Source of the DNA: Curtobacterium salicis
GTDB taxonomy: Bacteria > Actinomycetota > Actinomycetes > Actinomycetales > Microbacteriaceae
Length of the DNA: 64,000 nt
Assembly (NCBI RefSeq): GCF_011759505.1
Contig: NZ_JAAOYO010000001.1
Coordinates: forward strand, 186,001 to 250,000
Direction of reading: 5' to 3'
In this document: positions 11,146-31,320 of the stretch, in pieces
Position numbering within the stretch: the first letter of the stretch is position 1
Layout: the number at the start of each line of letters is the position of its first letter
Notes under the pieces: generated by a model
Told to the model about the DNA's origin: nothing
Database searches by the model: none
The model's input: only the letters and a program-made list of their open reading frames with translations
Program-made: the position numbers and the translations under genes

Positions 11146-11164
11146 TTAGGTAAGGCATGCCATA
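11146..11164. promoter_or_regulatory. Candidate DtxR/IdeR iron box
   Basis: TTAGGTAAGGCATGCCATA matches the actinobacterial DtxR/IdeR consensus TTAGGTTAGGCTAACCTAA at 13 of 19 positions by my count, including the whole left half except one base. It lies just upstream of a siderophore-interacting protein gene and overlaps a -10-like CATACT (11161-11166). An iron-loaded repressor bound there would block transcription. The match plus context make iron control likely. Confidence 0.6.
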
Positions 11165-11172
11165 CTCGAGGT

Positions 11173-12084: not shown

Positions 12085-12896
12085 GCCCTGCCTCGGTCCT
12101 CACCCCGGAGGCACCGGTCACGGCACTCGGCGCGCGCGGACTCCGGCTCGGCTACGACGACCGGGTGGTCGTGCGCGACCTCGACGTGGACGTCCCGGAC
12201 GGTGAACTGACCGTCATCGTCGGGCCGAACGCCTGCGGCAAGTCGACGCTGCTCAAGGCACTGGCCCGGACGCTGAAGCCGTCCGCCGGCACGGTGTACC
12301 TCGACGGACGACCGATCACGTCCTACCGCCCGAAGGCCGTCGCCCGTCGGGTGGCGATGCTGCCGCAGACCCCGATCGCCCCGGACGGCATCACCGTGCG
12401 AGACCTCGTGTCCCGCGGGCGGTTCCCGCACCAGGACCTGCTGCACCCCTCGAGCGGGACCGACCGCCAGGTCGTGCAGGCGGCCCTGGCCCAGACCGAC
12501 ATCGTCGGGCTCGCCGACCGCGGTGTCGACGAACTGTCGGGCGGGCAGCGGCAGCGGGTCTGGATCGCGATGGTGCTCGCACAGGAGACCGACATCGTGC
12601 TCCTCGACGAGCCGACGACGTTCCTCGACATCGCGCACCAGTACGACGTGCTCGAGCTCGCGTCCGCGCTGCACGCCGCCGGGCGGACGGTCGTCGCGGT
12701 GTTGCACGACCTCAACCAGGCGGCCCGGTACGCGACCCACATGATCGCGATGCGGGACGGCGAGATCGTGGCGCAGGGGACGCCCGAGTCCGTCGTCACC
12801 GAGGAACTCGTCGCCGACGTGTTCGGGTTGCCGTGCGTGGTCGTCCCCGACCCGGAGACCGGCACCCCGCTCGTCGTCCCGCGCCGCGCGCGCTGA
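12078..12896 (+). CDS. Ferric-siderophore ABC transporter ATP-binding protein (FecE/FhuC-like)
   Basis: A 272-aa ATPase with Walker A GPNACGKST (residues 49-57), the Q-loop region around MLPQTP, signature LSGGQRQRVWIAM, Walker B IVLLDEPTTFLD and H-loop VLHDLNQAARY. The TTFLDIAHQ and LHDLNQA segments are typical of the FecE/FhuC siderophore group. It starts at a GTG overlapping the siderophore-interacting gene. No permease or binding protein is next to it, so it must energise a transporter encoded elsewhere. Confidence 0.92.
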   Translation: MLSPASVLTPEAPVTALGARGLRLGYDDRVVVRDLDVDVPDGELTVIVGPNACGKSTLLKALARTLKPSAGTVYLDGRPITSYRPKAVARRVAMLPQTPIAPDGITVRDLVSRGRFPHQDLLHPSSGTDRQVVQAALAQTDIVGLADRGVDELSGGQRQRVWIAMVLAQETDIVLLDEPTTFLDIAHQYDVLELASALHAAGRTVVAVLHDLNQAARYATHMIAMRDGEIVAQGTPESVVTEELVADVFGLPCVVVPDPETGTPLVVPRRAR

Positions 12897-12977
12897 GCCT
12901 GACTGCCGTTGTGCGTGGCAAGGTGACGCGGCTCGGCGCCTGGCTGGGCCTGGGCCTGGGCGGGCGTGGGCCGAGCG

Positions 12978-13334
12978 TCAGCGGTACCCGCCGTCCTCCA
13001 GCCCAGCCTCGACCTCGAAGCGGTTGCGCAGGGGGTCCCGCCCGGCGACACCGTAGAGCAAGGGCATGAGCATGCCGTACCGACGCCACTGGTCGACGTG
13101 CACGCGCTCGTGCCGCAGGACCCGGTCGCCGTCGTTGTCCCGCGTCAGGTAGACCGAGCCGACGCAGGTCCCGCCGCGCCGGAACACCCAGCGCGGCAGG
13201 CCCCGGCAGACGATCAACCCGTCGACGACCCGGACGGGGCCCGTCGACAGCGGCAGCCCGATCGCCAGGCCCACCGCGGTCGCGAACAGCCACCCGGCGC
13301 GGGACACCGGGGAGTCGAGGAGCGGGTTCCGCAC
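12978..13334 (-). CDS. Small protein with HERVHVDQW metal-site-like motif
   Basis: A 118-aa protein starting at a GTG. It has a hydrophobic N-terminal segment (residues 14-30) and then a core with VLRHERVHVDQWRRYG. The H-E-x-x-H spacing (HERVH) followed by a conserved-looking D-Q-W resembles a zinc site of small gluzincin-like domains. I do not recognise a named family; similar short actinobacterial proteins have been labelled Fe-S oxidoreductase, but I see no Cys cluster to support that. It starts 3 bp after the stop of the flavin oxidoreductase gene, so they form an operon. Confidence 0.7.
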   Translation of the reverse strand: MRNPLLDSPVSRAGWLFATAVGLAIGLPLSTGPVRVVDGLIVCRGLPRWVFRRGGTCVGSVYLTRDNDGDRVLRHERVHVDQWRRYGMLMPLLYGVAGRDPLRNRFEVEAGLEDGGYR

Positions 13335-15686: not shown

Positions 15687-16409
15687 TCAGACGGTCGGTC
15701 CGCCCGACTTCAGGGCGGCGAGACGGGCCTCGACCTCGGCGTCGCGGCCGACGTCCTCGAGGCTCTCGAACTGTGCGTCGAGGCTCGATGCCTGCAGCTC
15801 CTGCTGGCCGATCACCTTCGCTTCTTCACGACGGACCTTCTCCTCGAAGCGCGCGAGGTCGCTCGTCGGGTCGGTGATGTCGATGTTGCCGAGGGCGTCG
15901 TTGACCTTGGTCTGGGCCTCGGCGGTCTTGGCGCGGGCGACGAGGGTGTTCCGCTTGGCCCGGAGCTCCTCGAGCTTCTGCTCCATGCCGGCGAGACCCT
16001 GCTTGAGCTTCTCGACCTGCTCGTTCTGCGTGGCGAGCGGCGCGGCGTTGTCCTTGACCTCCTGCTCGGCGGCGATCTGCTTGCCGAGCGCGATCTTGGC
16101 GAGGTTGTCGAACTTGTCGGCGTCCGCCGCCTTGCCCTCGGCGCGGTACCGGTCCGCGGCGGTCGAGGCGTTGGCAGCCTTCTGACCCCACTCCTGGGCG
16201 GCGCGGACGTCCTCGTCGTTGTCCTGTTCGAGCAGGCGGAGGTTGCCGATCGTCTGCGCGATGGCGCTCTTGGCGTCCGCGATGTTGTTCGAGTAGTCGC
16301 GGACGAGCTGGTCGAGCATCAGCTGCGGGTCCTCGGCGTTGTCGATGAGCTGGTTGATGTTCGCTCGGACGAGCGAGGAGATACGACCGAAGATGGACTG
16401 CTTTGCCAT
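15687..16409 (-). CDS. pspA: PspA/IM30 family membrane-stress protein
   Basis: A 240-aa, mostly helical protein starting MAKQSIFGRISSLVRANINQLIDNAEDP, the amphipathic N-terminus and first helix of the PspA/Vipp1 (ESCRT-III-like) family. Long coiled-coil stretches follow (residues 30-215). These proteins form oligomers on the cytoplasmic membrane and protect it under envelope stress. The ATG at 16409 has AAAGGGAA at good spacing. A longer Ala-rich upstream reading frame is shadow sequence. It is the second gene after the TPM-domain gene, an association that fits a shared membrane-stress role. Confidence 0.92.
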   Translation of the reverse strand: MAKQSIFGRISSLVRANINQLIDNAEDPQLMLDQLVRDYSNNIADAKSAIAQTIGNLRLLEQDNDEDVRAAQEWGQKAANASTAADRYRAEGKAADADKFDNLAKIALGKQIAAEQEVKDNAAPLATQNEQVEKLKQGLAGMEQKLEELRAKRNTLVARAKTAEAQTKVNDALGNIDITDPTSDLARFEEKVRREEAKVIGQQELQASSLDAQFESLEDVGRDAEVEARLAALKSGGPTV

Positions 16410-16449
16410 TGCTGGTTCCCTTTCGTGGATGGATCGCTGGTTCGTGCGA

Positions 16450-16494
16450 GCGGCCTGGTCAGGAGCGGCCGAGTCAGAAGCGGCCTGGTCAGAA
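16450..16494. repeat. Three 15-bp tandem repeats spanning a stop codon
   Basis: Units GCGGCCTGGTCAGGA, GCGGCCGAGTCAGAA and GCGGCCTGGTCAGAA follow one another at 16450-16464, 16465-16479 and 16480-16494. On the minus strand each unit carries TGA in the same phase. The last one (16489-16491) is the stop codon of the TPM-domain gene, so the end of the gene (Gly-Arg-Phe-stop) is repeated downstream in degenerate form. Confidence 0.8.
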
Positions 16495-18486
16495 GCGTCC
16501 GCCGCCGGAGAAGCCGCCGCCGCCACCGCCGCCGCCACCGCCGCCGCCACCGCCGCCGCCACCGCCACCGCCGCCGCCGAAGCCGCCCCCGCCGAAGCTC
16601 CCGCCGCCGTAGCTGCCGCCACGCCCGCCGAGCAGGCCGCCGAGGACGATGCCGGTGACGAGGCCGCCGAGCTGCGCACCACCCCGCCCGCCGCCCATGC
16701 CGCCGCCGGCGCCGGGCCAGCCGCCCATGTCGTTGTTCGCTTCGTCGATGGCGGCTGCTGCGTACTGCTCGGCGGCGCGAGCGGCCTGGAGGGCACGCTG
16801 CGGGTCGGTCGTGGCGAGGTCGAGCGCGTCGTCGAGCGCGCGTTCGGCCTCGGAGAGGCGGGTGCGGGCGGTCGAACCCACCCCGCCGCGGTGCACGGTG
16901 ACGTACTGCCGTGCCTGGGTGATCCGGCTCCGGGCGTCCCGCAGCGCGGCGTCGAGCGCCTGGGTCGCCCGACGGTGCTGCTCCTCGGCGGTGCGGGCGC
17001 TGGCGAGGGCGGCGTCGATGTCGGTGTTCGCCTTGGTCAGCGCGTCGACGGCGCCGACGGGGTCGCGCGGGTCGACGTCGGTCCGGAGCACACGCTGCGC
17101 GCGGGCGACGGCGGCGGCGAGGTCCGGGCCGCCCGTCGTGAGCGTGCCGGCGGCGGCGAGGTCGCCCTCGATGTCGGCCCGCATCGCCTCGGCACGGGCG
17201 GCGGCGTCGGCGAAGGTCGTCTCGGCGGCGGTCACGGACCCGGTGAGCTGCTGGACCTGGGCGAGCGCGTGCTGACCGTCGCGGACGGCGACGACGGCTG
17301 CGCCGCGGTCTCCGGCGGCGAGGGCGGTCCGGGCTGCGGTGGCGCGCTCGTCGGCGTACCGCAGGACCTCGGCGGCCTGGTCGACGTTGTCGGCCACGGT
17401 CGCCAGGGTCCGGCCGGTGTAGGCGCTCCGGACGCGTTCGAGGGCCGCACGTGCGGCGTCCACGGCGGCGGGCACCGCGGCGAGCGAGGTGGTGAGCTCG
17501 GCGGAGGCACTGTCGACCGTGTCCTCGAGCGCCCGGAGCTGGTCGAACGCCTCGGTCTGGGCCTCGATCGCCGCGTGGGCCTGTTCGCACGTGGTGATGA
17601 TCTGGTTCGACCAGTCGACGCGCTGCTGCGGGCTGTCGGGGACCTCGTCGTCGAGTTGCTGCTGGAGGGCGAACGCCTTGCGGACCTCGCGCTTCGCGAT
17701 CGCCACGGTGTCGGCGAACGGCTTCGCGGCGTCGTCACCGAACTGCGCGGCGGCGAACCCGACCTCTTGCTCGGCGGTGCGGATCTCGTCGTCGATCGTG
17801 ACGAGAGCGCCGCCGGCTCGGCGTTCGAGTTCGGCGAGGGTCTGTTCCTGCTGCTCGCGTGCCGCGGCGGCGCGGCGCTTGTTCCGGGTGCGGATCACGA
17901 GGACCGCGACGACGGCGGCGAGCACGGCGACACCGAGCAGGATCCACAGCCAGGTCAGGTCCGCGGGCTGCTGGCTCTGCTGCAGTCCGCCGGCGAACGC
18001 GGTCGCGGCGGCGGCCCACTGCCCCTGCTTCAGCCGGGGGAGCAGGTCGGAGTCGACCGCGTTCTCCACGTCGCCCGAGCTGATCGCGGTCTCGTTCGTC
18101 TGCTGGACGTCGTAGTTCCGCTCGTCGACCGCGACGGAGAGCAGGATGCCGTCGGTCTCGATCTGGTTGCGCTGCAGGGTCGCCGCGCCCCAGGCGGTGT
18201 GGTCGCTCGGGTCGGTGAACGCGGGGACGAACACCACGTACAGCTGGGTCTTCGTGTCCTGGTACAGCTGCTGCACGGCCTGTTCGACGTCGGCCTGCTG
18301 GGCACCGGTGAGGGCGCCGGCGTCGTCGACGACGTACGCACTGCCGATGTCGACCGGTGCGGTGGCCTGCGCTCCGGCTGCGGGGAGCACGACGAGCGTC
18401 ACTGCCACCATCGCCGCGACGATCCCCGACAGCAGGCGCGTCACCCGCGTCGATCCGGAGTCCGTCCTGCCTTCGACCGCGCGCAT
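16489..18486 (-). CDS. TPM-domain (YgcG-like) membrane protein with polyglycine tail
   Basis: A 665-aa protein. It has a signal or anchor helix (residues 17-37), a TPM domain (about 45-165, VVDDAGALTGAQQADVEQAVQQLY then TDGILLSVAVDERNYDVQ), a transmembrane helix near 173-195, and a long Ala/Gln/Glu-rich coiled-coil region (200-590). A Gly-rich tail follows, with more than 20 consecutive glycines ending FSGGGRF. TPM proteins are membrane-anchored with a secreted TPM domain, and Gly-rich tails are usual for the family. The ATG at 18486 is chosen to include the signal segment; a GTG at residue 15 (VTRLLSG) is an alternative. It is followed by pspA. Confidence 0.85.
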   Translation of the reverse strand: MRAVEGRTDSGSTRVTRLLSGIVAAMVAVTLVVLPAAGAQATAPVDIGSAYVVDDAGALTGAQQADVEQAVQQLYQDTKTQLYVVFVPAFTDPSDHTAWGAATLQRNQIETDGILLSVAVDERNYDVQQTNETAISSGDVENAVDSDLLPRLKQGQWAAAATAFAGGLQQSQQPADLTWLWILLGVAVLAAVVAVLVIRTRNKRRAAAAREQQEQTLAELERRAGGALVTIDDEIRTAEQEVGFAAAQFGDDAAKPFADTVAIAKREVRKAFALQQQLDDEVPDSPQQRVDWSNQIITTCEQAHAAIEAQTEAFDQLRALEDTVDSASAELTTSLAAVPAAVDAARAALERVRSAYTGRTLATVADNVDQAAEVLRYADERATAARTALAAGDRGAAVVAVRDGQHALAQVQQLTGSVTAAETTFADAAARAEAMRADIEGDLAAAGTLTTGGPDLAAAVARAQRVLRTDVDPRDPVGAVDALTKANTDIDAALASARTAEEQHRRATQALDAALRDARSRITQARQYVTVHRGGVGSTARTRLSEAERALDDALDLATTDPQRALQAARAAEQYAAAAIDEANNDMGGWPGAGGGMGGGRGGAQLGGLVTGIVLGGLLGGRGGSYGGGSFGGGGFGGGGGGGGGGGGGGGGGGGGGGFSGGGRF

Positions 18487-18671
18487 CCGTCCTCTTTCCG
18501 TGGTCCTGTCGACCGGGTCCGTGGCCGTCGCCCGGAGTCTATCCAGGCGTCCGCTGGGCGTGCCGGGGCTGTGGACAACCGGCTCGGGCGACGTCCACCT
18601 GTACCCCGTCCTGGCCCGACGAGGTCGCGCAGGATGCGGACAATCCGGGAGTGGTGTCCCCCGAAGCGGGG

Positions 18672-18677
18672 TATGGT
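18672..18677 (+). promoter_or_regulatory. -10-like TATGGT, partly in a small hairpin
   Basis: TATGGT directly follows a short inverted repeat CCCCG-AAG-CGGGG (18659-18671). It lies 31 nt before the ATG at 18709, leaving room for a short leader with the ribosome-binding site AGGAAGG (18692-18698). No clear -35 is seen. The 222-bp region between the divergent genes at 18486 and 18709 shows nothing else that I can support. Confidence 0.35.
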
Positions 18678-18708
18678 GAGTCCACGTCAACGAGGAAGGG
18701 GTCCAGCA

Positions 18709-18912
18709 ATGGAGCGAGCGACCACTGCAGAAGTCGTCCCACTGGAGGACGGGTACCACCGCGTGTCGACACCGCTGAGCGGTGTGATCGGGTTCGTCCG
18801 TGAGAGCGACGGCCGGTACGAGGTCCTCCGTGGCCGCGTCCGTCAGGCCACCCGGTCCGAGGGCAAGTACGCGACCATGAACGTCGCGCTCATCGCCCTG
18901 ACGCACGCCTGA
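18709..18912 (+). CDS. Small hypothetical protein (67 aa)
   Basis: The ATG at 18709 has AGGAAGG ten bases upstream. The protein, starting MERATTAEVVPLEDGYHRVS, is soluble, mildly basic and rich in beta-type residues, with no Cys and no membrane segment. I do not recognise it. Good ribosome-binding site, high-GC third positions and an 8-bp gap to the phosphopantetheinyl transferase gene support it as a real gene co-transcribed with that enzyme. Confidence 0.72.
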   Translation: MERATTAEVVPLEDGYHRVSTPLSGVIGFVRESDGRYEVLRGRVRQATRSEGKYATMNVALIALTHA

Positions 18913-18920
18913 AGGACTCC

Positions 18921-19544
18921 GTGTCGGACGGTGCCGTCGTCCGCGTCCTGACCGGACGCGGGTCACGCACCGCCGACCGGGAGGCCCTCCTCGCGTTCGT
19001 CGCGGAGGTCACCGACACGGACACCGCGTTGGTGACCGTCGTCCGGCGCTGCCCGCAGTGCGGAGCGGCCGACCACGGTCGACCGGCAGCCGTCGTGGAC
19101 GGCCGGCACCTCGGCGTGAGCCTGTCCCGCACGCCCGGCGCCCTGGCCCTCGCGGTCGCCCCGGGCACGATCGGCGTCGACGTCGAACGGCCGTCCCGGG
19201 TGACCGCCGCCGGGCTCGACGTCTTCACGTCGGGGGAACGCGGCCGGGCCTCCTCGTCCGCGTCCGTGCCCGTCCACCTGACCGCGTGCTGGGCCGTGAA
19301 GGAGGCCGTCCTCAAGCGTGACGGCCGAGGGCTCCGTGTCGATCCGTCGGCGGTCGACTCGGTGCTCGGTCCTGTGGCGTCCGGTGCGGATGTGCACATG
19401 GCGGCGTTCGACGGCCTCGTCCAGCCGGTCACGGTCCTCCGGCTCGAAGACGACCTCGTGCTCGCTGTTGCTGCCGGTGGCGCGCCCGTCGACGTGCAGG
19501 ACCGACGCGACCGGTCGGACGCCGGTCCGTGGAGCGTCGTCTAG
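18921..19544 (+). CDS. 4'-phosphopantetheinyl transferase superfamily protein
   Basis: A 207-aa Sfp-type enzyme with the Mg-binding motif GVDVE (about residues 82-86) and WAVKEAVLK (about 122-130), the two signatures of the family, plus an N-terminal RCPQCGAADHGRP segment typical of actinobacterial members. It transfers phosphopantetheine from CoA to a carrier-domain serine. The carrier domain of the synthetase at 20866-24858 (Ser537) is the obvious local substrate. It starts at a GTG with GAAGGA upstream. Its stop overlaps the convergent M1 peptidase stop. Confidence 0.9.
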   Translation: MSDGAVVRVLTGRGSRTADREALLAFVAEVTDTDTALVTVVRRCPQCGAADHGRPAAVVDGRHLGVSLSRTPGALALAVAPGTIGVDVERPSRVTAAGLDVFTSGERGRASSSASVPVHLTACWAVKEAVLKRDGRGLRVDPSAVDSVLGPVASGADVHMAAFDGLVQPVTVLRLEDDLVLAVAAGGAPVDVQDRRDRSDAGPWSVV

Positions 19545-20857
19545 GGGAGTCCGGGGACGCCGGGCTCGTCGATCCACGGACCGATGGTGAGCAGCACGGC
19601 CGCCGGTGTGCTCCCGGCGGCGGTCGCGAACGCATCGACGACCTCGGTCGTCGTGACGGTGCCGTGCCGGTGCCGCTCGGTGATGGTGCGGAGTCCGACG
19701 GTGAACGCCTGGTCGCCGATCGTGCGGCGGAGGGCGTGCAGGGCGAGTGCCCCGCGCTTGTAGACGCGGTCGTCGAACATGTCCCGGGCGCCGGGGTCCG
19801 CGATGACCAGGTCCGGTGGCTGCTCGAGCAGCCCGGCGCGGTGCTCCGTGGCCAGGTCGTCCGCCGTGGCGCCGCCTCGGTGTTCGGACCAGAGCCACTC
19901 GGCGTAGCAGGCGAAGCCCTCGTGCAGCCAGATGTCCCGCCACTGCCCGAGGGTCACCGAGTTGCCGAACCACTGGTGGGCGAGCTCGTGGGCGATGAGC
20001 CGGTCGGTGCCGTGTGCGCCGTCGACGTGGTTCCGCCCGAACACCGCCAGGCCGTGCGCCTCGAGCGGGATCTCCAGCTCGTCGTCGGTCACCACGACGC
20101 CGTACTCGGCGAACGGGTACGGGCCGAAGCGGTCGGTGAACAGGGCGATCATCTCCGGCACCCGTCCGAAGTCGGTCTTCGCCGCCGTGGTGAGGTCGGC
20201 CGGGTGGTGCAGGGTCACCGGGACGTCACCGCCCCGGATGGTCGTGGTCCGGTAGCGGCCGATCTGCACGGTGGCCAGGTAGGTCGCCATCGGCTCGGTG
20301 ACGGCGAAGGTCCACCGGGTGCCGCGTGCGGTGCGGTCACGGCCGAGGAGCTCCCCGTTCGCGACGACGTCGTAGCCGGCCTCGCAGGTGAGTTCGATCC
20401 GGTAGGTGGCCTTGTCGTCGGGCCGGTCGTTGCACGGGAACCACGACGGCGCACCGATCGGCTGGCTGGCGACGATGACGCCGTCGGTGAGTTCCTCCCA
20501 GCCGAGCGTGCCCCAGGGGCTCCGGAGCGGTCGGGGTGCGCCGCGGTACCGGACGTGCACGGCGAACTCGGCGCCGGCGGCGATGGGGGTGGCGGGCGTC
20601 ACCGTCGTCTTGTGCGTCCCGACGGACACCTTCTTCGCACGGACCCCGTCGACGTCGACCCGGTCGACGGACAGCCCGTGCAGGTCGAGGACGACCTTGT
20701 CGAGCGGCTCGTTCGCCACCGCCGTGACGGTCGCGGTCGCATCGAGGCGGTTCGTGGCGACCCGGTAGTCGAGGTGCAGGTCGTGGTGGCGGCTCGACCA
20801 GCGCCGGTCGCCGCTGTGCGGGGTGTACGGGTCGGCGGCGGGGTCGGTCTGCTTCAC
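19541..20857 (-). CDS. M1 family metallopeptidase (aminopeptidase N-like)
   Basis: A 438-aa protein with the gluzincin zinc site HELAH (His290, Glu291, His294) and the third ligand Glu313 in LHEGFACY. The upstream exopeptidase segment reads LEIPLEAHG in the position of GxMEN. The length covers only the N-terminal beta domain and the catalytic domain; the long C-terminal domain of PepN is absent, as in many actinobacterial short M1 enzymes. There is no signal peptide. It starts at a GTG and lies 8 bp downstream of the synthetase gene, so they are likely co-transcribed, which links it to the unknown product or its processing. Confidence 0.9.
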   Translation of the reverse strand: MKQTDPAADPYTPHSGDRRWSSRHHDLHLDYRVATNRLDATATVTAVANEPLDKVVLDLHGLSVDRVDVDGVRAKKVSVGTHKTTVTPATPIAAGAEFAVHVRYRGAPRPLRSPWGTLGWEELTDGVIVASQPIGAPSWFPCNDRPDDKATYRIELTCEAGYDVVANGELLGRDRTARGTRWTFAVTEPMATYLATVQIGRYRTTTIRGGDVPVTLHHPADLTTAAKTDFGRVPEMIALFTDRFGPYPFAEYGVVVTDDELEIPLEAHGLAVFGRNHVDGAHGTDRLIAHELAHQWFGNSVTLGQWRDIWLHEGFACYAEWLWSEHRGGATADDLATEHRAGLLEQPPDLVIADPGARDMFDDRVYKRGALALHALRRTIGDQAFTVGLRTITERHRHGTVTTTEVVDAFATAAGSTPAAVLLTIGPWIDEPGVPGLP

Positions 20858-20865
20858 GGTGCCGG

Positions 20866-23800
20866 TCAGTCTGTCACGGGCCCGGCGGGCGCCGGGGCGT
20901 CGGCGCGCTTCCCGTCCACGGCTGGCCCGGTGGCGCCACCGGGCCGGGAGGCGCCACCCGGCTCGGACAGGTCACCCGCCTCCGCGTCGACCCCGGCACG
21001 CCAGGGCGGGTGTTCCCACGGCGAGATCGGGTTGCCGGCCCAGAGCGTGCCGGCGGGGACCTGCTCGCCGCGCATCACGAGCGAGGCCGGTCCGACGGTC
21101 GCACCGGGGCCGATCCCGGCTGCGGGCAGGACGACGCCGTGTGGGCCGAGCGTCGCGCCCGCGTCGAGCGTCACGGTGTCGAGCTGCATGACGCGGTCGT
21201 GGAACAGGTGGGTCTGGACGACGGTGCCGCGGGCGATCGTCGCACCGTCACCGATCGTGACGAGGTCCGCCTCGGGCAGCCAGTACGTCTCGCACCAGAC
21301 CCCGCGGCCGATGGTCGCACCGAGGCTCCGCAGCCACGCGGCCAGGGCCGGCGTGCCGATGGCCTGTTCGGCGAACCAGGGGCGTGCGACGGTCTCGACG
21401 AAGGTGTCCTGCACCTCGTTGCGCCACACGAACGAGGACCACAGCGGGTGTTCGGTCGCGGTGATCCGGCCGACGAAGGCCCACTTCGCCAGCGTCGACA
21501 CCGCGGCGGCGACCGCTCCGGCGACGATGAGCACCGGGCCGGCGAGCAGCACCGTCCACCCGATGCCGACCGTGCTCCACAGCGCCAGCAGGCTCAGCGC
21601 GACGCCGAGGCCGATGCCGGCGGAGACCATCGGCGCGACCAGGCGCAGCAGCTCCCACGCGCCGCGGGCGACCTTGAGGCGGGCCGGCGGCCGGAAGGTG
21701 CGTTCCTCGTCGAACTGCGCGGTGGCCCGGCGCAGACGGACCGGCGGGCTGCCGAGCCAGGACGAGCCGCGCTTGGCCTTCTTCGGCACGGCGGACAGGA
21801 CCGCGACGAGCGCTTCTCGGGGGACCGAGCGACCGGCGCCGGTCATGCCGCTGTTGCCGAGGAACGCGCGACGCCCGACCTTCGAGCGCCCGATCTTCAC
21901 CCGGCCACCGCCGAGCTCGTACGTGGCGACCATGGTGTCGTCGGCCAGGAACGCCCCGGAGGCGATCTGCGTCAGCGCCGGGATGAGCAGCACGGTGGAG
22001 ATCTCGGTGTCCCGGCCGACCTTCGCACCGAGCAGCCGGAGCCACAGCGGCGTGACCAGGCTGGCGTACAGCGGGAACAGCAGCGTGCGCGCCGCGTCGA
22101 GGATCCGCTCCGTGCTCCACACCTGCCAGCCGATCCGGGAGCGCACCGGGTGCCGTCCCTCGGTCAGTCCGAGTCCGAGCAGCCGGACCGCGGCGACGAC
22201 GAGTCCCGCGTACACGACCCCGGCGACGACGGTGGCGAGCGGCACGGCGAGCAGGGCCGGTCCCACCGCGGCGCCGAGCGACCCCGGACGCCCGACCACC
22301 GCGGCGACGACGGCGAGCCCGGCCACGACACCGACGACGGGCAGCCCGGCGACGGCGACGGAGCCGACCCCGTAGGCGAGCAGCCAGCGCTTCGGGGCGG
22401 CGGGGCGTGCCTCCCGGCCGTGACGGGCCGAGCCGACGCGTTCGGCGGCCGACCCCGCCCACCGCTCACCGTCCGGGACGCGACCCGCGACGGCGGAGCC
22501 GGCCTCGACCTCCGCGCCGTCACCGACGTACGCGCCGGGCATGAGCGTGGAGCGGCTGTGCACGACCGCGTCCGCTCCGACGTGCACCGTGCCGAGCCGG
22601 AAGACGTCGCCGTCCACCCAGTGCCCGGCGAGGTCGACCTCGGGCTCGATCGAGGCGCGCTTGCCGATGGTCAGCATGCCGGTCACCGGCGGCAGGGTGT
22701 GCAGGTCGACGTCACGGCCGACCGTCGCCCCGAGCGCACGGGCGTAGTAGCTGATCCACGGCGCGCCCGCGGTGGAGGGGCCGTCGACCGCCTCCGCGAT
22801 CCGCTCCGCGAGCCAGACCCGCACGTGCACCGAGCCGCCGCGGGGGTGGTCACCGGGACGGACGCCCGCCAGCAGCAGCCGGGCGGCGACGACCGTGATC
22901 GTCATCTTCCCCGCGGGGGTGACGAACAGCAGCAGCCCGACGACGAGCGCCGGCCAGGGCAGCACGGGCAGGAACGGCATCGTCGTGGCGTGCAGGACCT
23001 GGGCGACCAACGCCGTCCAGCTGAGCAGCCGGAGTCCGCGGAGCACCTGCAGCGGCAACCCGAGGAGCGTCAGCAGCGCCCCGGTCGCCGGCGGGACGGG
23101 AGCGACGTGCCGGGACGCGGCGGCCACCGGACCGGACTCGTCCAGCGCGTCGGCGAGGGCACCGATGCGCGGGTGGTCGTAGACGTCCGCGACCGTCGTC
23201 GTCGGGTAGCGCTCGCGGATCGCGGAGACGAGCTGTGCGGCGGTCAGCGAGCCACCACCGTGGGCGAAGAAGTCGTCGTCGACGTCCGCCACCGGGACAC
23301 CGAGGATCGCGGACCACCGCTCGGCGATCCACGCGACGGTCGGCGGCAGGTCCGTGCCCGTCGCACCCGCGAGCGGCCAGGGGAGTGCCGCACGGTCGAC
23401 CTTGCCGGAGGTGCGGGTCGGCAGGACGTCGACGACGGCGAGGAGCGGCACGAGTGCGGCGGGCAGCTCCTGCCGGAGCCGCTCGTTCGCGGCGGACGTG
23501 TCGATGGTCGCGCCCGCCACGGGGGCGACGTAGCCGACGAGGACCTGGTTGCCGGCCGGGGTGCGCTGCACGACCGCGGCACCACCGGCGACGTCGTCGA
23601 GCGCCTGCAGGGCCGCGTCGATCTCGCCGAGTTCGATGCGGCGGCCACCGAGCTTCACCTGGTCGTCGGCGCGACCCTGGAAGACGAGGCCCTCCGGGTC
23701 GTACCGCACCAGGTCGCCGCTCCGGTACGCCCGCTCCCACCCGAGGGCCGGGAACGGCGCGTACTTCTCGGCGTCCTTCGCCGGGTCCAGGTAGCGGCCG

Positions 23801-24858
23801 AGCCCGACACCACCGATCACCAGCTCACCGACCTGCCCCGGCGCGACCCGCTGCCCCTCGGCGTCGACGACGGCCAGGTCCCACCCGTCGAGCGGCAGCC
23901 CGATCCGGATCGGCGTGCTGCCGTCGAGCAGGGCCCCGCACGCGACGACGGTGGCCTCGGTCGGCCCGTAGGTGTTCCAGACCTCCCGGTCACGGGACGC
24001 GATGCGCGCGGCGAGCTCGGGCGGGCACGCCTCACCACCGAAGATCACCAGGCGCACCGACTCCAGCGCGTCGTCCGGCCACAGCGCCGCGAGGGTCGGC
24101 ACGGTCGAGACGACGGTGATCCCGTGCGCGATGAGCCACGGCCCGAGGTCCACACCGCTCTTCACGAGGGACCGGGGCGCGGGGACCAGGCACGCCCCAT
24201 GACCCCAGGCGAGCCACATCTCCTCACAGGAGGCGTCGAATGCGACACTGAGCCCGGCGAGCACCCGGTCCGCGGGCCCCAGGGGCGCCGACTGCAGGAA
24301 CATCCGCGCTTCGGCGTCGACGAACGCGGCAGCGGAACGGTGCGTGACGGCGACGCCCTTCGGCACCCCCGTCGACCCCGAGGTGAAGATGATCCAGGCG
24401 TCGTCGTCGGTGGTCGGGGGCTCGGCGCTCGCCGTGGGGTCGGTGACGGGCAGGGCGGTGCCGTCACGGCTCCGGAGGACCCCGCCGGCACCGATGACGC
24501 CGACGACGCCCGCTTCGCCGAAGACGAGGGTGGCGCGTTCCTCGGGGTCGTCGGCGTCGACGGGCACGTAGGCGGCTCCGGCGGCGAGGACGGCGAGGAT
24601 GGAGACCGACAGGTCACGGCCGCCGGAGGGGATGCGGATGCCGACCCGGTCACCGCGGCGGACACCGTGCCGTGCGAGGTCGTCGGCGCGGTCGCGGACG
24701 AGGGCGAGGAGGGCCCGGTAGTCGAGCGGCCCCTCGGGGGTCTCGAGGGCCAGGGCGTCGGGGTGCGTCTCGGCGGTGGTGGCGAGGACGTCGAGCAGGG
24801 TCCTGGCGGGTGCCGCGAGGCCACCCCGGTCGAGTTCCCGCTGCGTGGAGTGCGTCAC
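20866..24858 (-). CDS. Pls/PosA-type NRPS: adenylation-carrier unit fused to membrane and beta-helix domains
   Basis: A 1330-aa protein. Residues ~20-500 form an adenylation domain: A3 motif FTSGSTGVPKG (158-168), FDASCEEMW with the amino-acid-binding Asp (207-215), NTYGPTE (295-301), YRSGDLV (378-384) and TSGKVDRAALP with the catalytic Lys486. A carrier domain follows, with Ser537 in FAHGGGSLTAAQL. The rest alternates hydrophobic helices (about 595-665, 828-895, 1075-1125) with left-handed beta-helix, hexapeptide-repeat blocks (about 700-805, 940-1010, 1175-1275). This resembles epsilon-poly-lysine synthetase (Pls) and PosA relatives, which activate an amino acid and polymerise or transfer it at the membrane. 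There is no condensation or thioesterase domain. The product is unknown. The GTG at 24858 gives the family N-terminus. Confidence 0.88.
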   Translation of the reverse strand: MTHSTQRELDRGGLAAPARTLLDVLATTAETHPDALALETPEGPLDYRALLALVRDRADDLARHGVRRGDRVGIRIPSGGRDLSVSILAVLAAGAAYVPVDADDPEERATLVFGEAGVVGVIGAGGVLRSRDGTALPVTDPTASAEPPTTDDDAWIIFTSGSTGVPKGVAVTHRSAAAFVDAEARMFLQSAPLGPADRVLAGLSVAFDASCEEMWLAWGHGACLVPAPRSLVKSGVDLGPWLIAHGITVVSTVPTLAALWPDDALESVRLVIFGGEACPPELAARIASRDREVWNTYGPTEATVVACGALLDGSTPIRIGLPLDGWDLAVVDAEGQRVAPGQVGELVIGGVGLGRYLDPAKDAEKYAPFPALGWERAYRSGDLVRYDPEGLVFQGRADDQVKLGGRRIELGEIDAALQALDDVAGGAAVVQRTPAGNQVLVGYVAPVAGATIDTSAANERLRQELPAALVPLLAVVDVLPTRTSGKVDRAALPWPLAGATGTDLPPTVAWIAERWSAILGVPVADVDDDFFAHGGGSLTAAQLVSAIRERYPTTTVADVYDHPRIGALADALDESGPVAAASRHVAPVPPATGALLTLLGLPLQVLRGLRLLSWTALVAQVLHATTMPFLPVLPWPALVVGLLLFVTPAGKMTITVVAARLLLAGVRPGDHPRGGSVHVRVWLAERIAEAVDGPSTAGAPWISYYARALGATVGRDVDLHTLPPVTGMLTIGKRASIEPEVDLAGHWVDGDVFRLGTVHVGADAVVHSRSTLMPGAYVGDGAEVEAGSAVAGRVPDGERWAGSAAERVGSARHGREARPAAPKRWLLAYGVGSVAVAGLPVVGVVAGLAVVAAVVGRPGSLGAAVGPALLAVPLATVVAGVVYAGLVVAAVRLLGLGLTEGRHPVRSRIGWQVWSTERILDAARTLLFPLYASLVTPLWLRLLGAKVGRDTEISTVLLIPALTQIASGAFLADDTMVATYELGGGRVKIGRSKVGRRAFLGNSGMTGAGRSVPREALVAVLSAVPKKAKRGSSWLGSPPVRLRRATAQFDEERTFRPPARLKVARGAWELLRLVAPMVSAGIGLGVALSLLALWSTVGIGWTVLLAGPVLIVAGAVAAAVSTLAKWAFVGRITATEHPLWSSFVWRNEVQDTFVETVARPWFAEQAIGTPALAAWLRSLGATIGRGVWCETYWLPEADLVTIGDGATIARGTVVQTHLFHDRVMQLDTVTLDAGATLGPHGVVLPAAGIGPGATVGPASLVMRGEQVPAGTLWAGNPISPWEHPPWRAGVDAEAGDLSEPGGASRPGGATGPAVDGKRADAPAPAGPVTD

Positions 24859-24921: not shown

Positions 24922-25030
24922 CGGAGTCTCACGACGAGCTGCGCCAACCTGTCGGAGTCTCACGACGAGGTGCGGCAACCTGTCGGAGTCTCACGACGAG
25001 GTGCGCGGCCCCCCGGAGTCACCACGGGGG
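24922..25030. repeat. 31-bp tandem repeats, two full copies plus degenerate copies
   Basis: Units begin CGGAGTCTCACGACGAG at 24922, 24953 and 24984, and again as CGGAGTCACCACG at 25014. The first two are 31 bp and differ at only two positions; the third diverges after 22 bases; the fourth keeps only the first bases. They fill most of the 264-bp gap between the synthetase gene (starts 24858) and tRNA-Arg. There is no spacer structure, so this is not a CRISPR array. Downstream, at 25035-25049, is a small hairpin GTCGGC-GAA-GCCGAC. Confidence 0.85.
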
Positions 25031-25277: not shown

Positions 25278-25859
25278 TCAGGGTGCCGGCGTACTGCTCG
25301 CGGGTGCACCGGCGTCCGGTGCGACGGCGGCGCGGACCGCGTCGACGACGGGTCCCGCGGCTCCGGGCTCGGTGTAGAGGGACGACGCGGTGTGGATCCA
25401 GTAGGGGCCGGCGAACGCGTCGGCACGGCCGGTCTCCCCGCCGAGGCTGAAGTACCCCTCGACCGTGTAGGTGGGCACGGAGCCGCCCTGTTCGAAGAGG
25501 GCGTCCTCGAGCTGGGTGAGCTGCGCCTCCGGCAGGTGGGCGACGGCGACGGTGACGGTGACGCTGTGGTCGGTGGTGGAGCGCCAGGTGCAGACGCGGC
25601 CGTCCTGGGTGGCGATCTGGGCGACCGGGGAGCCCTTCGTCGGCTTCGGCGAGCGGACCCGTTCGAACCGCTGCCCGTAGACGCTGAAGGTGTCGGCGGG
25701 CACGAGGGTGTCGCAGGTCTGGCTGACGGGTCGTCCGACGACGCCGGCCGACGCAGAGGGTGCCGCGTGGCCGCCGCCTCCGGAACAGCCGGCGAGGACG
25801 AGTGCGGCGGGGACGACGAGGGCGGCGATGCTGATCGCCCGGAGGCTGCGGGAGGTCAT
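25278..25859 (-). CDS. Putative lipoprotein
   Basis: A 193-aa protein with signal peptide [25 protein letters not shown]; lipobox LAGC with Cys25. After a Gly/Ser/Ala linker it has a single compact domain with two Cys (TCDTLVPAD and GRVCTWR) that could form a disulfide outside the cell. It ends in an Ala/Pro/Ser tail. No family recognised. The longer reading frame upstream of the ATG at 25859 is shadow of the argS gene region. It diverges from argS across a 73-bp gap. Confidence 0.78.
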
Positions 25860-25918
25860 GACGGTCCATCCTGCTGCATGGGGCCCGGCGTGGTCCGGGC
25901 GCTGCCTGGGTGTCCCGG

Positions 25919-25924
25919 TAGACT
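25919..25924 (+). promoter_or_regulatory. -10-like TAGACT for argS
   Basis: TAGACT ends 8 nt before the GTG start of argS at 25933, so the transcript probably starts at or next to the start codon (leaderless). No ribosome-binding site is present before the GTG. A -35 element is not evident. Confidence 0.45.
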
Positions 25925-25932
25925 CGTGCGCC

Positions 25933-27603
25933 GTGACTCCTGCCGAACTCTCCGAAGCGTACCTGTCGATCCTCACGGGCATCGTCGAGCGACGCGGTGC
26001 TGCCGACACGGTGACCATCGAGCAGTCGCACGTGGCGTTGGAGCGGCCGAAGAACCGGGCGCACGGTGACTGGGCGTCGAACGCGGCGATGCAGCTCGCG
26101 AAGCGCCTGGGCACGAACCCGCGGGAACTCGCGACGGAGATCGCGGGGGAGCTGACCGAGCTCGACGGTGTCGCGTCGGTGGACGTGGCGGGTCCGGGCT
26201 TCATCAACATCACGCTCGAGGCCGCTGCGGCCGGCGAGGTCGCACGCACGATCGTCGACCAGGGCGAGTCCTTCGGTCACGGCGACCTCTACGACGGCGT
26301 CCGGATCGACCTGGAGTTCGTCTCGGCGAACCCGACCGGGCCGATCCACATGGGCGGCGTCCGCTGGGCAGCGGTCGGCGACAGCCTGGCCCGCGTGTTC
26401 CAGGCGCAGGGCGGTCTGGTGACCCGCGAGTACTACTTCAACGACCACGGCAACCAGATCGACCGGTTCGCCCGGTCCCTGCTGGCGTCCGCGCTCGGTG
26501 AGCCGACGCCGGAGGACGGCTACGGCGGTGCGTACATCGGCGAGATCGCGGCCCGCGTGCTCGCGACGCTGGAGCCGGGTCTCGACGTGACCGACATGCC
26601 GCGGGACGAGGCGCAGGAGCTGTTCCGCCGCGAGGGCGTCGAGTTCATGTTCACGGACATCAAGCGCTCGCTGCACGACTTCGGCGTCGACTTCGACGTC
26701 TTCTTCCACGAGAACTCGCTGCACGAGTCGAAGGCCGTCGACCGCGCCATCGCCCGCCTGCAGGAGCAGGGCCGGATGTACGAGGCGGACGGCGCACTGT
26801 GGCTCCGGACGACGGACTTCGGTGACGACCGCGACCGCGTGGTCATCAAGTCGGACGGCGAGCCCGCGTACATCGCCGGCGACCTGGCCTACTACCTCGA
26901 CAAGCGTGAGCGTGGCTTCGAGCGGAACCTCATCATGCTCGGCGCGGACCACCACGGCTACGTCGGTCGCATGATGGCGATGTGTGCCGCGTTCGGTGAC
27001 GAGCCGGGCAAGAACCTCGAGATCCTCATCGGCCAGCTGGTGAACCTGCTCAAGGACGGCCAGCCGCTCCGGATGTCGAAGCGCAACGGCACGGTCGTGA
27101 CGATGGAGGACCTGGTCGACGCGGTCGGTGTCGACGCCGGTCGGTACGCCCTCGTCCGCTTCGCGAGCGACACCGCGATCGACATCGACCTCGACCTGCT
27201 CACCAAGCGGACGAACGACAACCCCGTCTTCTACGTGCAGTACGCACACGCCCGCACGCAGTCCGTCGCGCGGAACGCCGCCGCCTCGGGCGTCGACCGG
27301 TCGGTGTTCGACGCGTCGCTGCTCACGCACGAGTCGGAGAGCTCGCTCCTCGGTGCTCTCGCCGAGTACCCGCGGGTGCTCCGTCAGGCCGCCGAGCTCC
27401 GCGAGCCGCACCGCATCGCGCGGTTCATCGAGCAGCTCGCCGGCCTGTACCACCGCTGGTACGACTCCTGCCGCGTCACCCCGCTCGGCGACGAGCCGGT
27501 GACCGACCTGCACCGCACCCGCCTGTGGCTGAACGACGCCACCGGGCAGGTCGTCCGCAACGGTCTCGGGCTGCTCGGCGTCAGCGCGCCCGAACGGATG
27601 TAG
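25933..27603 (+). CDS. argS: Arginyl-tRNA synthetase
   Basis: A 556-aa class I aminoacyl-tRNA synthetase that charges tRNA-Arg. Visible are the HIGH-type motif HMGG (about residue 140) after [11 protein letters not shown], the motif [13 protein letters not shown], and a KMSKS-type loop RMSKRNG (about 379-385). The C-terminal ALYxRW-like anticodon-binding end reads [13 protein letters not shown]. The N-terminal Add1 domain is present. Length is normal. The GTG at 25933 is the start because upstream sequence is non-coding and a -10-like hexamer precedes it. A tRNA-Arg gene lies close by. Confidence 0.97.
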
Positions 27604-27605
27604 CG

Positions 27606-28376
27606 GTGTCGTCCGCAGCAGCTCCGGCAGCGGGTCGACGCCGGAAGTGGCGCGGGCGCACGGTCGCGATCGTCCTGGTCGTCGTCCTCGTGGTGCTCGC
27701 CGTGCTCGTCGTCGTGGCGGAGTTCGTGCTCCGCGGTGTCGTCGACCGGACGGTCGCGTCGCAGGTCGAGCAGTCGCTGCCGGACGGCACGACGGGCACG
27801 GTCGACGCGCACGTGCCGGGTGTCGTGATCCCGCAGCTGCTCCGTGGCACGCTCGACGACGTCCGGATCACCTCGGACCGGCTGACGGTGGAGGGCATCC
27901 CGCTCGCCGCCGACGTCACCGCGCACGACCTGCCGGTGGACGGCAAGGGTGCGGTGCACGACGTCGACGGCACGGTCCGGTTGGCGTCCGGCGCGGTGAA
28001 GGACCTGGCGAAGTACTCGCCGCTGTTCGAGCGGGTCCGTCTGATCGACGGCGGGGTGGAGTTGCGGGGGAGCGCGTCGGTGCTCGGCTTCCGGATCGGC
28101 TACGCGGCGGACGGGTCGGTCTCGGTGCAGTCCGACGGCCGCGGGGTCACGATCACGCCGAAGACGGTCCGGATCACGAACTCCTCGCTCGGGCTGAAGG
28201 TCGACGACATCCCCGGCGTCTCGGACGTGCCGGTGCCGGTGTGCACGGCGCAGTTCCTGCCGGAGCAGCTCCGTGTCCGCTCGCTCCGGGTGACCTCGGC
28301 GGCGGCGACGGTCCGGATCACGGCCGACGAACTGCCCCTCAGCGAGGCGGGTCTGCGCACCACCGGCCGCTGCTGA
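27606..28376 (+). CDS. DUF2993 (LmeA-type) phospholipid-binding protein
   Basis: A 256-aa protein. A basic N-terminus is followed by one signal-anchor helix (about residues 20-42, VAIVLVVVLVVLAVLVVVAEFVL) and an extracytoplasmic domain with VDRTVASQVEQSL near its start, typical of DUF2993. Mycobacterial LmeA of this family binds phospholipids and takes part in lipomannan maturation. Here the exact role is unknown, probably in envelope lipid handling. It starts at a GTG 2 bp after the argS stop and is presumably co-transcribed with it. Confidence 0.8.
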   Translation: MSSAAAPAAGRRRKWRGRTVAIVLVVVLVVLAVLVVVAEFVLRGVVDRTVASQVEQSLPDGTTGTVDAHVPGVVIPQLLRGTLDDVRITSDRLTVEGIPLAADVTAHDLPVDGKGAVHDVDGTVRLASGAVKDLAKYSPLFERVRLIDGGVELRGSASVLGFRIGYAADGSVSVQSDGRGVTITPKTVRITNSSLGLKVDDIPGVSDVPVPVCTAQFLPEQLRVRSLRVTSAAATVRITADELPLSEAGLRTTGRC

Positions 28377-28451
28377 GCGGGCAGCGTCGTGCTGCGTCCG
28401 GCGCCCGTCCACAGGCGGCGTCACATGGCCGGGAGGGACTGCACGGCCGGA

Positions 28452-28457
28452 TAGGAT
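28452..28457 (+). promoter_or_regulatory. -10-like TAGGAT for lysA
   Basis: TAGGAT ends 8 nt before the lysA GTG at 28466. This is the same arrangement as at argS and suggests a leaderless or very short-leader transcript for the lysA-hom-thrC-thrB genes. No lysine riboswitch-like structure fits in the 89-bp gap. Confidence 0.45.
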
Positions 28458-28465
28458 CGGGTCCC

Positions 28466-29887
28466 GTGAGCGAGAACCCCCTTGCACCGCCGCGACTGCG
28501 GTTCCCGGCGGACGCCTCCGAGCTGATGGCCCGGATCTGGCCCGCGTCCGCGACGCGCACCGACGAGGGCATGCTCGCGATCGGCGGGGTCGCCGCCGAC
28601 GACCTCGTCGCCCGCTTCGGCTCTCCGCTCTACGTCGTCGACGAGCGTGACGTGCAGTCGCGTGCCGTCCGCGTGCGGGACGCCTTCACCGATGCGTTCG
28701 CCCGGATCGGCACGCGGGCGCACGTCTACTACGCCGCGAAGGCCTTCTGGACGACGCACGTCGCCCGGTGGATGGCCGCCGCAGACCTCCGCCTCGACGT
28801 CTGCACGATGGGCGAACTCGCCGTCGGACTGGCGGCGGGCGTCGACCCGGCACTGATGGGCTTCCACGGCAACGACAAGTCCGACGCCGAGATCGAGCGC
28901 GCCGTCGCGGTCGGCCTCGGCACGATCGTCCTCGACAGCCACGAGGAGATCGGTCGCGTCGCCCGGATCGCCGCCGACGCCGGGGTCACGCAGCGGGTGC
29001 GCATCCGGATCAACAGCGGGGTGCACGCCTCGACGCACGAGTTCCTGGCGACCGCTCGCGAGGACCAGAAGTTCGGCATCCCGCTGTCCGAGGCGGTCCA
29101 GGCCGCGACCGCTGTCCGCGCCGAACCGTCGCTCGCCTTCGTGGGGCTGCACTCGCACATCGGCTCGCAGATCTTCGACGACAGCGGGTTCCGCGAGGCG
29201 GCACGTCGGCTGATGGACGTGCACGCGACGCTCGTCGGATCCGGCCCGGTGCCGGAGCTGAACCTCGGCGGCGGGTGGGGCATCGACTACACGGAGTCCG
29301 ACTCCGCCCTCGCGCCGGAGGACGTCGCCGACGCCCTCGCTGCGATCATCGCCGACGAGTGCTCGTCGCGGGGCATCCCGGTGCCCGAGATCGCGGTCGA
29401 GCCCGGCCGCTACATCGTCGGCCCGCCCGGCATCACGCTGTACCGCGTCGGCACGATCAAGCCCGTCGCGGTGGACGCCGAGGACGGCACCGCGGCGACG
29501 CGGACGTACGTGTCGGTCGACGGCGGGATGAGCGACAACGTCCGGCCGGCGCTCTACGGCGCCGACTACACGGCACGGCTCGCCCGGACCTCGGACGCCG
29601 ACCCGGTGCTCACGCGCGTGGTCGGCAAGCACTGCGAGAGCGGTGACGTCGTCGTCCACGACGAGTACCTGCCCGGTGACGTGCACCGTGACGACCTGCT
29701 CGCCGTGGCCGCGACCGGCGCCTACTGCTGGAGCCTGGCGAGCAACTACAACCACGTCGGCCGCCCGCCGGTCGTCGCGGTCGCCGACGGGGCAGCCCGT
29801 ATCCTCGTGCGGGGCGAGAGCGTCGACGACCTCCTCGCCCGCGACACGGGCGTCGTGCCGGTACCCGACACCGGTACGGACGCCTGA
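28466..29887 (+). CDS. lysA: Diaminopimelate decarboxylase
   Basis: A 473-aa PLP enzyme of fold type III that makes L-lysine from meso-diaminopimelate. The PLP-binding Lys is in YYAAKAFWT (about residue 91). Further landmarks are HSHIGSQI, the phosphate-binding GGGWGIDY, EPGRYIVG, and CESGD near residue 389 with the Cys that acts across the dimer. Followed 28 bp later by hom, as in many actinobacteria where lysA, hom, thrC and thrB share a cluster for the aspartate-derived amino acids. Confidence 0.96.
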   Translation: MSENPLAPPRLRFPADASELMARIWPASATRTDEGMLAIGGVAADDLVARFGSPLYVVDERDVQSRAVRVRDAFTDAFARIGTRAHVYYAAKAFWTTHVARWMAAADLRLDVCTMGELAVGLAAGVDPALMGFHGNDKSDAEIERAVAVGLGTIVLDSHEEIGRVARIAADAGVTQRVRIRINSGVHASTHEFLATAREDQKFGIPLSEAVQAATAVRAEPSLAFVGLHSHIGSQIFDDSGFREAARRLMDVHATLVGSGPVPELNLGGGWGIDYTESDSALAPEDVADALAAIIADECSSRGIPVPEIAVEPGRYIVGPPGITLYRVGTIKPVAVDAEDGTAATRTYVSVDGGMSDNVRPALYGADYTARLARTSDADPVLTRVVGKHCESGDVVVHDEYLPGDVHRDDLLAVAATGAYCWSLASNYNHVGRPPVVAVADGAARILVRGESVDDLLARDTGVVPVPDTGTDA

Positions 29888-29915
29888 GAACCCGACCCGG
29901 AGAGACCCCCACCAG

Positions 29916-31223
29916 ATGATCGAATACCGCAACGTCCGCGTCGCACTGCTCGGAGCCGGCTCGGTCGGCTCCCAGGTCGCACGACTCCTGCTCGAGCACG
30001 GACCGGAGCTCGCCACGCGCGCCGGTGCCGGCCTCGAACTCGTCGGGATCGCCGTGCGCGACGTCGACGCCCAGCGGGACGTCGACCTGCCGCGCGAGCT
30101 GTTCACGACGGACGCCGGTTCGCTCATCCTCGGAGCCGACATCGTCGTCGAGCTCATCGGCGGCATCGAGCCCGCCCGCACCCTCGTGCTCCAGGCGCTG
30201 CAGTCCGGCGCCGACGTCGTCACCGGCAACAAGGCGCTGCTCGCCACGCACGGTCCGGAGCTCTTCGCCGCTGCCGAGCAGGTCGGCGCACAGCTCTACT
30301 ACGAGGCCGCCGTCGCGGGCGCGATCCCGATCATCCGACCGCTGCACGACTCGCTCGCCGGGGACCGCATCGAGCGGATCATGGGCATCGTCAACGGCAC
30401 CACCAACTTCATCCTCGACCTGATGGACCGCGAGGGCGCCACGTTCGCCGACGCGCTGGCCACCGCGACGGAGCTCGGGTACGCCGAGGCCGACCCGACC
30501 GCCGACATCGAGGGCTACGACGCCGCGCAGAAGGCCGCGATCCTGGCCTCGATCGCGTTCCACACCTCGGTCCCGCTCGCCGCCGTGCACCGCGAGGGCA
30601 TCACCTCCGTGACGATCGAGCAGGTCCGCGCCGCCCGCAAGGCCGGCTACGTCGTGAAGATCCTCGCCACCTGCGAGCGGCTCACCGACGCCGACGGCCG
30701 CGAGGGCGTCAGTGCCCGCGTGTACCCGGCCCTTGTGCCGGAGTCGCATCCGCTCGCCAGCGTCCACGGGGCGAAGAACGCGGTGTTCGTCGAGGCCGAG
30801 GCCGCCGGCGACCTGATGTTCTACGGCGCCGGAGCCGGCGGGGTCGAGACGGCGTCCGCGGTCCTCGGCGACCTGGTGTCCGCAGCCCGACGGCACGTGA
30901 TCGGCGGCCCGGGTGTCGCCGAGTCGACGCGGTCGGCGCTGCCGGTGTTCCCGATCGGGACCGTCCGCACCCGATACCAGATCTCCCTGCACGTGTCCGA
31001 CGCACCCGGTGTGCTCTCGACCGTCGCCGGGGTGCTCGCGGCCCACGGCGTCAGCGTCGAGACCGTCGAGCAGACCACCACGGGCGCCACCGAGGGGACC
31101 GCGACGCTCGTCATCGGCACGCACCTGGCGCGCGAAGCCGACCTGGCCGACACCGTCGCCGCACTCCGGGGCGAAGACGTCGTCCTGGACGTGACCAGCG
31201 TCCTGCGGTTCGTCGGCGTCTGA
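29916..31223 (+). CDS. hom: Homoserine dehydrogenase
   Basis: A 435-aa enzyme that reduces aspartate semialdehyde to homoserine with NAD(P)H. An N-terminal Rossmann motif [10 protein letters not shown] (13-22), the GNKALL segment, NGTTNFIL (about 160) and the catalytic region [16 protein letters not shown] are all present. A C-terminal ACT domain (about 355-430, [22 protein letters not shown]) suggests feedback control by threonine, as known for the family. The ATG at 29916 follows a weak AGAGAC. Confidence 0.96.
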
Positions 31224-31320
31224 CGCGACCACGCGCCTCCCGGCACCGAACCGACCACCCGCACCACCCAGACCGACCGACCCGATCCAGACCGCCCCAC
31301 CGGACAGAGAGAGAAGCCTG

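Follow-up and report, generated by a model that had tools for sequence, protein, structure and literature searches.

The pls locus and its predicted product

The window, by which we mean the whole 64,000-nucleotide stretch of the Curtobacterium salicis genome that was analysed (contig NZ_JAAOYO010000001.1, positions 186,001 to 250,000), contains a locus of three genes: pls, encoding a synthetase of the Pls/PosA family, a gene for an M1 metallopeptidase, and a gene for a phosphopantetheinyl transferase. An original prediction, made from the sequence alone, had singled out this locus; position 18709, at which it placed the lower limit, is the start of none of the three genes. The features are as follows, with positions counted in the window and epsilon-poly-L-lysine abbreviated as epsilon-PL.

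18921..19544, plus strand: Sfp-type-like phosphopantetheinyl transferase with the motifs GVDVE and WAVKEAVLK (ACPS, 1.1e-7)
19541..20857, minus strand: M1 metallopeptidase, putative PldII counterpart, with an intact HELAH motif and no N-terminal signal seen (Peptidase_M1, 6e-28)
20866..24858, minus strand: pls, predicted epsilon-PL synthetase with adenylation, carrier and membrane C domains (TIGR02353, 680 bits)
21025..23070, minus strand: polymerisation (C) domain of Pls, TIGR02353, with three long-helix pairs and three predicted left-handed beta-helices (AlphaFold2, Foldseek)
23143..23331, minus strand: carrier (T) domain of Pls (PP-binding), with the phosphopantetheine Ser codon at 23248-23250
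23359..24801, approximate limits, minus strand: adenylation (A) domain of Pls, pocket DAESIGTVVK, predicted for lysine (7WEW match, E 4e-187)
24922..25006, plus strand: 31-bp tandem repeat of 2.7 copies just upstream of pls

Reading pls from a GTG codon at 24858 gives a protein of 1330 amino acids, and an upstream TTG at 24978, from which the frame is likewise open, gives 1370. The protein scored well above the cut-off of the NCBIfam family TIGR02353, "Pls/PosA family" (423 bits), and Pfam AMP-binding and PP-binding matches (1.8e-58 and 4.1e-13) placed an intact A domain and then an intact T domain ahead of the TIGR02353 region, the domain order of a Pls-type enzyme. At E 0.001, Pfam showed neither a condensation nor a thioesterase domain in the synthetase, and the condensation domain PF00668 had no match anywhere in the window's genome. 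The carrier serine is residue 577 counted from the TTG and 537 from the GTG, the latter being the number given in the original prediction, which had also assigned the enzyme class and the domain content correctly. Judged by these matches, the protein is predicted to be a full-length Pls-type epsilon-PL synthetase.

The best solved relative of the A domain was the epsilon-PL synthase of PDB entry 7WEW. We took the ten pocket positions from the alignment by means of motif anchors, following the Stachelhaus scheme, and obtained the same ten-letter code for the window synthetase and for 7WEW. The code given for PosA of Acinetobacter baumannii, an enzyme with an ornithine pocket, is DMEHNGTVSK (PMC10522769). 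Since the window pocket is identical to that of 7WEW and unlike that of PosA, lysine is the predicted substrate, a PosA-type product was dropped, and epsilon-PL is the product to be expected. The original prediction had called the compound unpredictable and had treated PosA as a model on a par with Pls; the first judgement was too cautious and the second did not hold up. The pocket comparison that it proposed returned the pocket of a lysine-activating enzyme, not a domain with no amino-acid specificity. Among 40 relatives of the same order, the pocket read DAESIGTVVK in 35, DAESVGTVVK, with one Ile-to-Val change, in 4, and DFEYNGTVTK in 1 (locus L075). The synthetase of L075 is a divergent member of the Pls family, 35% identical to the window's and changed at several pocket positions; its genome (G045) had 22 carrier matches, the majority of those listed being on one contig.

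It is quite improbable that the product is instead another cationic homopolymer, such as poly-ornithine or poly-diaminobutyrate, with the M1 peptidase as its depolymerase. The Pls/PosA family does use several diamino acids (PMC10522769), and L075 brings a different pocket into the same order, but all ten window residues equal those of 7WEW, the published PosA code differs, and a scan of neighbouring proteins turned up neither an aminomutase nor a diaminobutyrate gene.

An AlphaFold2 model of the carrier and C domains (790 residues, 61 alignment rows) had a mean predicted local distance difference test score of 90.1 and a predicted template-modelling (TM) score of 0.90. In it, six long helices, one of them broken in two, are arranged as three pairs, and a run of short, regular strands comes after every pair. 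The three hydrophobic blocks and three beta-helix blocks described in the original prediction agree with this model, with insertion into the membrane as a predicted property; for the Pls/PosA family, six helices are stated to span the membrane (PMC10522769). Foldseek listed 50 PDB matches, mostly hexapeptide acyltransferases such as CysE (best E 3e-5); TM-scores were low (0.13 and 0.34 for the first match), probably because a single lobe of the three is matched. Several polar positions in lobes two and three were invariant in 61 of 61 rows, that of L075 included, and among them are His1257, Asp1261 and Arg1262 of the motif QTHLFHDR (numbered from the TTG). By likeness to beta-helix acyltransferases, His1257, which lies in the third beta-helix, is a candidate catalytic base. 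PosA has already been modelled on the same C-domain plan, with three packed beta-helices (PMC10522769), and the idea that this trio is new was dropped; PosA differs from the window locus in its pocket and in being encoded by a single-gene operon.

The M1 peptidase and its linkage to pls

The M1 gene starts 8 nucleotides past the synthetase stop on the same strand, as originally predicted. We aligned its product with the proteins of 109 of the 111 loci that carry an M1 gene on the strand of pls; a length or stop filter removed L071 and L097, and L075, with an M1-like match on the other strand, was likewise left out. The HExxH motif and the later Glu were retained in all 110 aligned proteins, as was a P-x-E motif at the site where GxMEN would be expected. 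The best solved relatives were compact M1 zinc metalloproteases, PDB 6a8z and 6iff, which matched over nearly the full length (E 5e-52 and 4e-51). A second M1 relative elsewhere in the window's genome is 28% identical over residues 139-407.

In Streptomyces albulus, pldII, the gene for the published epsilon-PL-degrading enzyme, is reported to overlap pls by 4 bp and to form one operon with it (PMC4361855), the gene being translationally coupled and PldII located outside the membrane (PMC9223678). Homology to PldII was judged through locus L080 of Streptomyces sp. MspMP-M5, an S. albulus-type locus with a gene at the PldII position, and not through PldII's own sequence. As the pls and M1 genes of L080 overlap by the same 4 nucleotides, its A domain is 93% identical to that of 7WEW, and its M1 protein is 47% identical to the window's over 98% of the length, we regard the window M1 as the counterpart of PldII, one that would hydrolyse epsilon-PL. 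This supports the suggestion of the original prediction that the peptidase has the product as its target. The S. albulus system shares with the window the domain order, the lysine pocket and a peptidase directly downstream in the operon (PMC4361855, PMC9223678), and differs in its overlapping genes; a linked transferase gene is a further distinguishing feature of the window locus. The combination of pls with a peptidase gene is already published (PMC4361855, PMC8117764, PMC9223678); the original prediction, sound on enzyme class, domains and linked genes, had overlooked this known pldII partner and, as noted, misjudged the product.

One full-length copy of the synthetase gene was present in 33 of 35 genus relatives, the two misses being genomes 73% and 65% complete, and in 7 of 23 genomes from other families of the order. 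The M1 gene lay directly downstream on the same strand in 39 of these 40 same-order loci, comprising 33/33 genus loci with pls (L071 is cut by a contig end) and 6/7 other-family loci; L075, the sole miss, has a weak M1-like match, located on the opposite strand. In a further 84 named loci, made up of the best 80 of at least 592 relatives and 4 of 19 plasmid records, M1 was directly downstream in 72, or in 72 of the 80 that could be assessed, since four stretches (L082, L126, L128 and L135) hold at most 619 bases after pls. These loci do not all represent separate species, as L089 and L105 lie in one genome. The loci with Pls and no M1 include a Rhodococcus opacus plasmid and four Kitasatospora loci. 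Distances in the Pls and M1 trees correlated (r = 0.91, 51 shared tips), a figure that is confounded by the species tree and was not used.

We inspected by eye the N-termini of 112 M1 proteins, including that of the window and the shortened one of L071, with starts chosen near the pls stop. A twin-arginine-like arrangement, with an arginine pair ahead of a hydrophobic stretch, was seen in 9 of the 112 (L078, L080, L081, L083, L084, L086, L087, L088 and L099), all from Streptomyces, and these nine form one clade with a support of 1.0 in the midpoint-rooted M1 tree of 110 tips. Screening by a hydropathy threshold of 1.9 as the sole criterion picked out just two proteins, L078 and L146; in L146 the segment concerned is internal and lacks paired arginines. 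No twin-arginine-like or other signal-like N-terminus was seen by eye in the window M1, and the frame upstream of its start is open for only 38 codons and contains one CTG, located four codons before the start. The window protein therefore does not carry the mark of the extra-membrane location reported for S. albulus PldII, a mark that M1 proteins of the L080 type do carry; for this reason we speak of a PldII counterpart rather than of PldII as described, and place it most likely in the cytoplasm. In the open-licence Pls and PldII literature that was searched, to which the original PldII paper does not belong, no mention of a missing M1 export signal was met.

The linked transferase and flanking genes

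The transferase gene, whose presence in the locus had been predicted correctly, runs towards the M1 gene, and the 3' ends of the two share 4 nucleotides. With a GVDVE motif, a WxxKEAxxK motif and a length of about 200 amino acids, the protein has the marks of the Sfp type, at a modest ACPS score of 32 bits. Across 32 aligned transferases, the G, D and E of the first motif and the W, E and last K of the second were invariant, and the first K was present in 31. A search with a profile built from 32 sequences of the window's order, which may miss distant homologues, found a linked transferase in 34 of the 40 same-order loci, 31/33 in the genus and 3/7 in other families; leaving out L071, which reaches a contig end, the genus count is 31 of 32 assessable loci. 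Within the genus the three genes are thus kept together, the outcome on which the original prediction had staked its reading. Linked transferases were found in only 8 of the 84 named loci, all of them in Arthrobacter, Pseudarthrobacter, Humibacillus or Brachybacterium, and in L125 the gene is upstream of pls. The distance between the M1 and transferase genes ranges within the genus from overlap to about 4 kb, and the gene of L045 looks shortened. Many genus relatives have about 1.1 kb between the two genes, which in L052 (9721-10500) encodes an M24 family peptidase; L054 has about 3.6 kb (9562-13147) with an amine-oxidase-like flavoprotein gene and a glycosyltransferase-like gene.

The window's genome contains two carrier domains and two transferases. 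The carrier other than that of Pls reads as the fatty-acid acyl carrier protein (ACP), set between ketosynthase-like open reading frames, and the transferase other than the linked one reads as AcpS. Two carriers and two transferases were likewise counted in the genus relatives G007, G019, G020 and G034 (the last 76% complete). At least two transferases were found in 7/7 other-family genomes with Pls versus 2/16 without (Fisher p = 1.5e-4, uncorrected for the relatedness of these 23 genomes). In G026, a genome without the linked gene, the second transferase adjoins a multi-carrier gene elsewhere. In the window's genome the linked transferase looks dedicated to Pls, whose carrier it would modify, judging from gene counts and co-occurrence. 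The searched open-licence pls literature, again without the original PldII paper, yielded no mention of a linked transferase: a passage of PMC4361855 that names a phosphopantetheinyl transferase concerns other genes, and the main text of PMC8117764, on coryneforms, does not use the word phosphopantetheinyl.

Next to the transferase gene, at 15687-18966, are genes for PspA/IM30-family and TPM-domain proteins, possibly an envelope-stress system. A TPM match occurs near pls in 32/33 genus loci, two of these matches covering roughly one tenth of its length, whereas the count for other-family loci is 0/7. On the far side of pls, 25690-32400 holds argS, lysA (diaminopimelate decarboxylase, the last step to lysine) and thrC; in the stretches fetched, argS is beside pls in 32/33 genus loci, part of lysA is included in 19/33, and neither is present in the 7 other-family loci. 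The 16-base core of the tandem repeat upstream of pls, allowing one mismatch at most, occurs three times in the genome, always at 24922-25006, and a reversed control pattern occurs twice. Among the upstream regions of 40 relatives, that of L062 had three copies, that of L065 a degenerate form, those of L055 and L067 one near-match of the core each, and the other 36 none, so that the repeat is not a conserved feature.

Proposed mechanism, alternatives and natural role

From the observed sequences, gene order, conservation, pocket identity and predicted fold, we consider it highly probable that the locus is a pls-pldII operon that would make and degrade epsilon-PL, with a probable activating transferase next to it. 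It is, in other words, a well-conserved case of a system already described. The linked transferase would load phosphopantetheine onto the carrier serine of Pls, which, given its identical pocket, would adenylate L-lysine and hold it as a thioester. As in its relatives, the membrane C domain would then join lysines through the epsilon-amine and move the resulting chain to the other side of the membrane. Hydrolysis of the polymer, as by PldII, would fall to the M1 peptidase, whose gene is probably cotranscribed with pls and which most likely works in the cytoplasm, where it would clear or recycle polymer retained in or re-entering the cell. A parallel exists in the coryneforms, non-filamentous actinobacteria with pls, a peptidase gene and a lysine pocket as in the window: Pls of Corynebacterium variabile is 51% identical to Streptomyces Pls, is encoded in an operon with a peptidase gene, and was demonstrated to produce epsilon-PL in Streptomyces coelicolor (PMC8117764). 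The same paper reports homologous proteins in Microbacterium, Arthrobacter and further coryneforms.

Several observations weigh against this interpretation or parts of it. The identity of the window Pls to an S. albulus-type enzyme, that of L080, is moderate overall at 53%. C. variabile itself had no detectable epsilon-PL under the conditions tested, and neither did Corynebacterium glutamicum expressing the C. variabile gene (PMC8117764), which suggests that the window locus may be silent. M1 is missing downstream of pls in 8 of the 80 assessable named loci (L077, L085, L089, L090, L092, L105, L127 and L141), and the peptidase is accordingly not needed everywhere. A transferase gene beside pls is missing from L036 within the genus and from 4 of the 7 other-family loci (L038, L039, L072 and L075). 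Among the 31 genus relatives other than G007, G019, G020 and G034, 27 have at least three transferases and 29 at least three carriers, so that the case for a dedicated role is strongest in the small group to which the window's genome belongs. The cytoplasmic location of M1 is read from a sequence in which no signal is visible. Finally, in the Pls tree the signal-bearing loci fall in a clade with a support of 0.951 to which L082, L089, L090, L092, L105 and L141 belong as well, loci in which M1 is not downstream or the stretch is cut before it.

We give little credence to the possibility that Pls couples lysine, singly or as short chains, to an acceptor in the membrane or wall, without a free polymer, and that M1 trims the attached residues. 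Near-universal presence in the genus resembles a housekeeping or envelope role more than that of a sporadic antibiotic, and the neighbouring TPM and PspA-family proteins hint at envelope functions; against this, the C. variabile enzyme releases polymer in S. coelicolor (PMC8117764), and none of the 7 other-family loci showed a TPM gene next to pls. A chance association of the three genes, in which M1 and the transferase would belong to other pathways, is very improbable: the transferase is on the opposite strand at a distance from M1 that varies in the genus, and a few Pls carriers lack one or the other gene, but pls-M1 adjacency is kept across many genera and the window's genome offers only the fatty-acid ACP and AcpS as other partners, and together with the transferase linkage this led us to drop it.

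Returning to the pls-pldII operon, the signal-bearing M1 proteins, 9 of 112 and confined to one Streptomyces clade, together with the near-universal pls of the genus, prompt a speculative proposal that we consider rather unlikely to be right as it stands. In most actinobacteria, Pls and M1 might constitute a cell-internal polymer cycle with a cytoplasmic depolymerase, the polymer being cell-associated material that acts as a store, balances charge or protects against stress. Export of the depolymerase in S. albulus-type Streptomyces might be a later change that accompanied secretion of the polymer as an antibiotic.

The locus adds a whole genus with an essentially universal epsilon-PL locus to the known cases, and its linked, perhaps dedicated, activating enzyme may be useful for heterologous production. 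The biological significance of these polymers has been called unclear (PMC9606270), and a probably cytoplasmic depolymerase would bear on their natural role.

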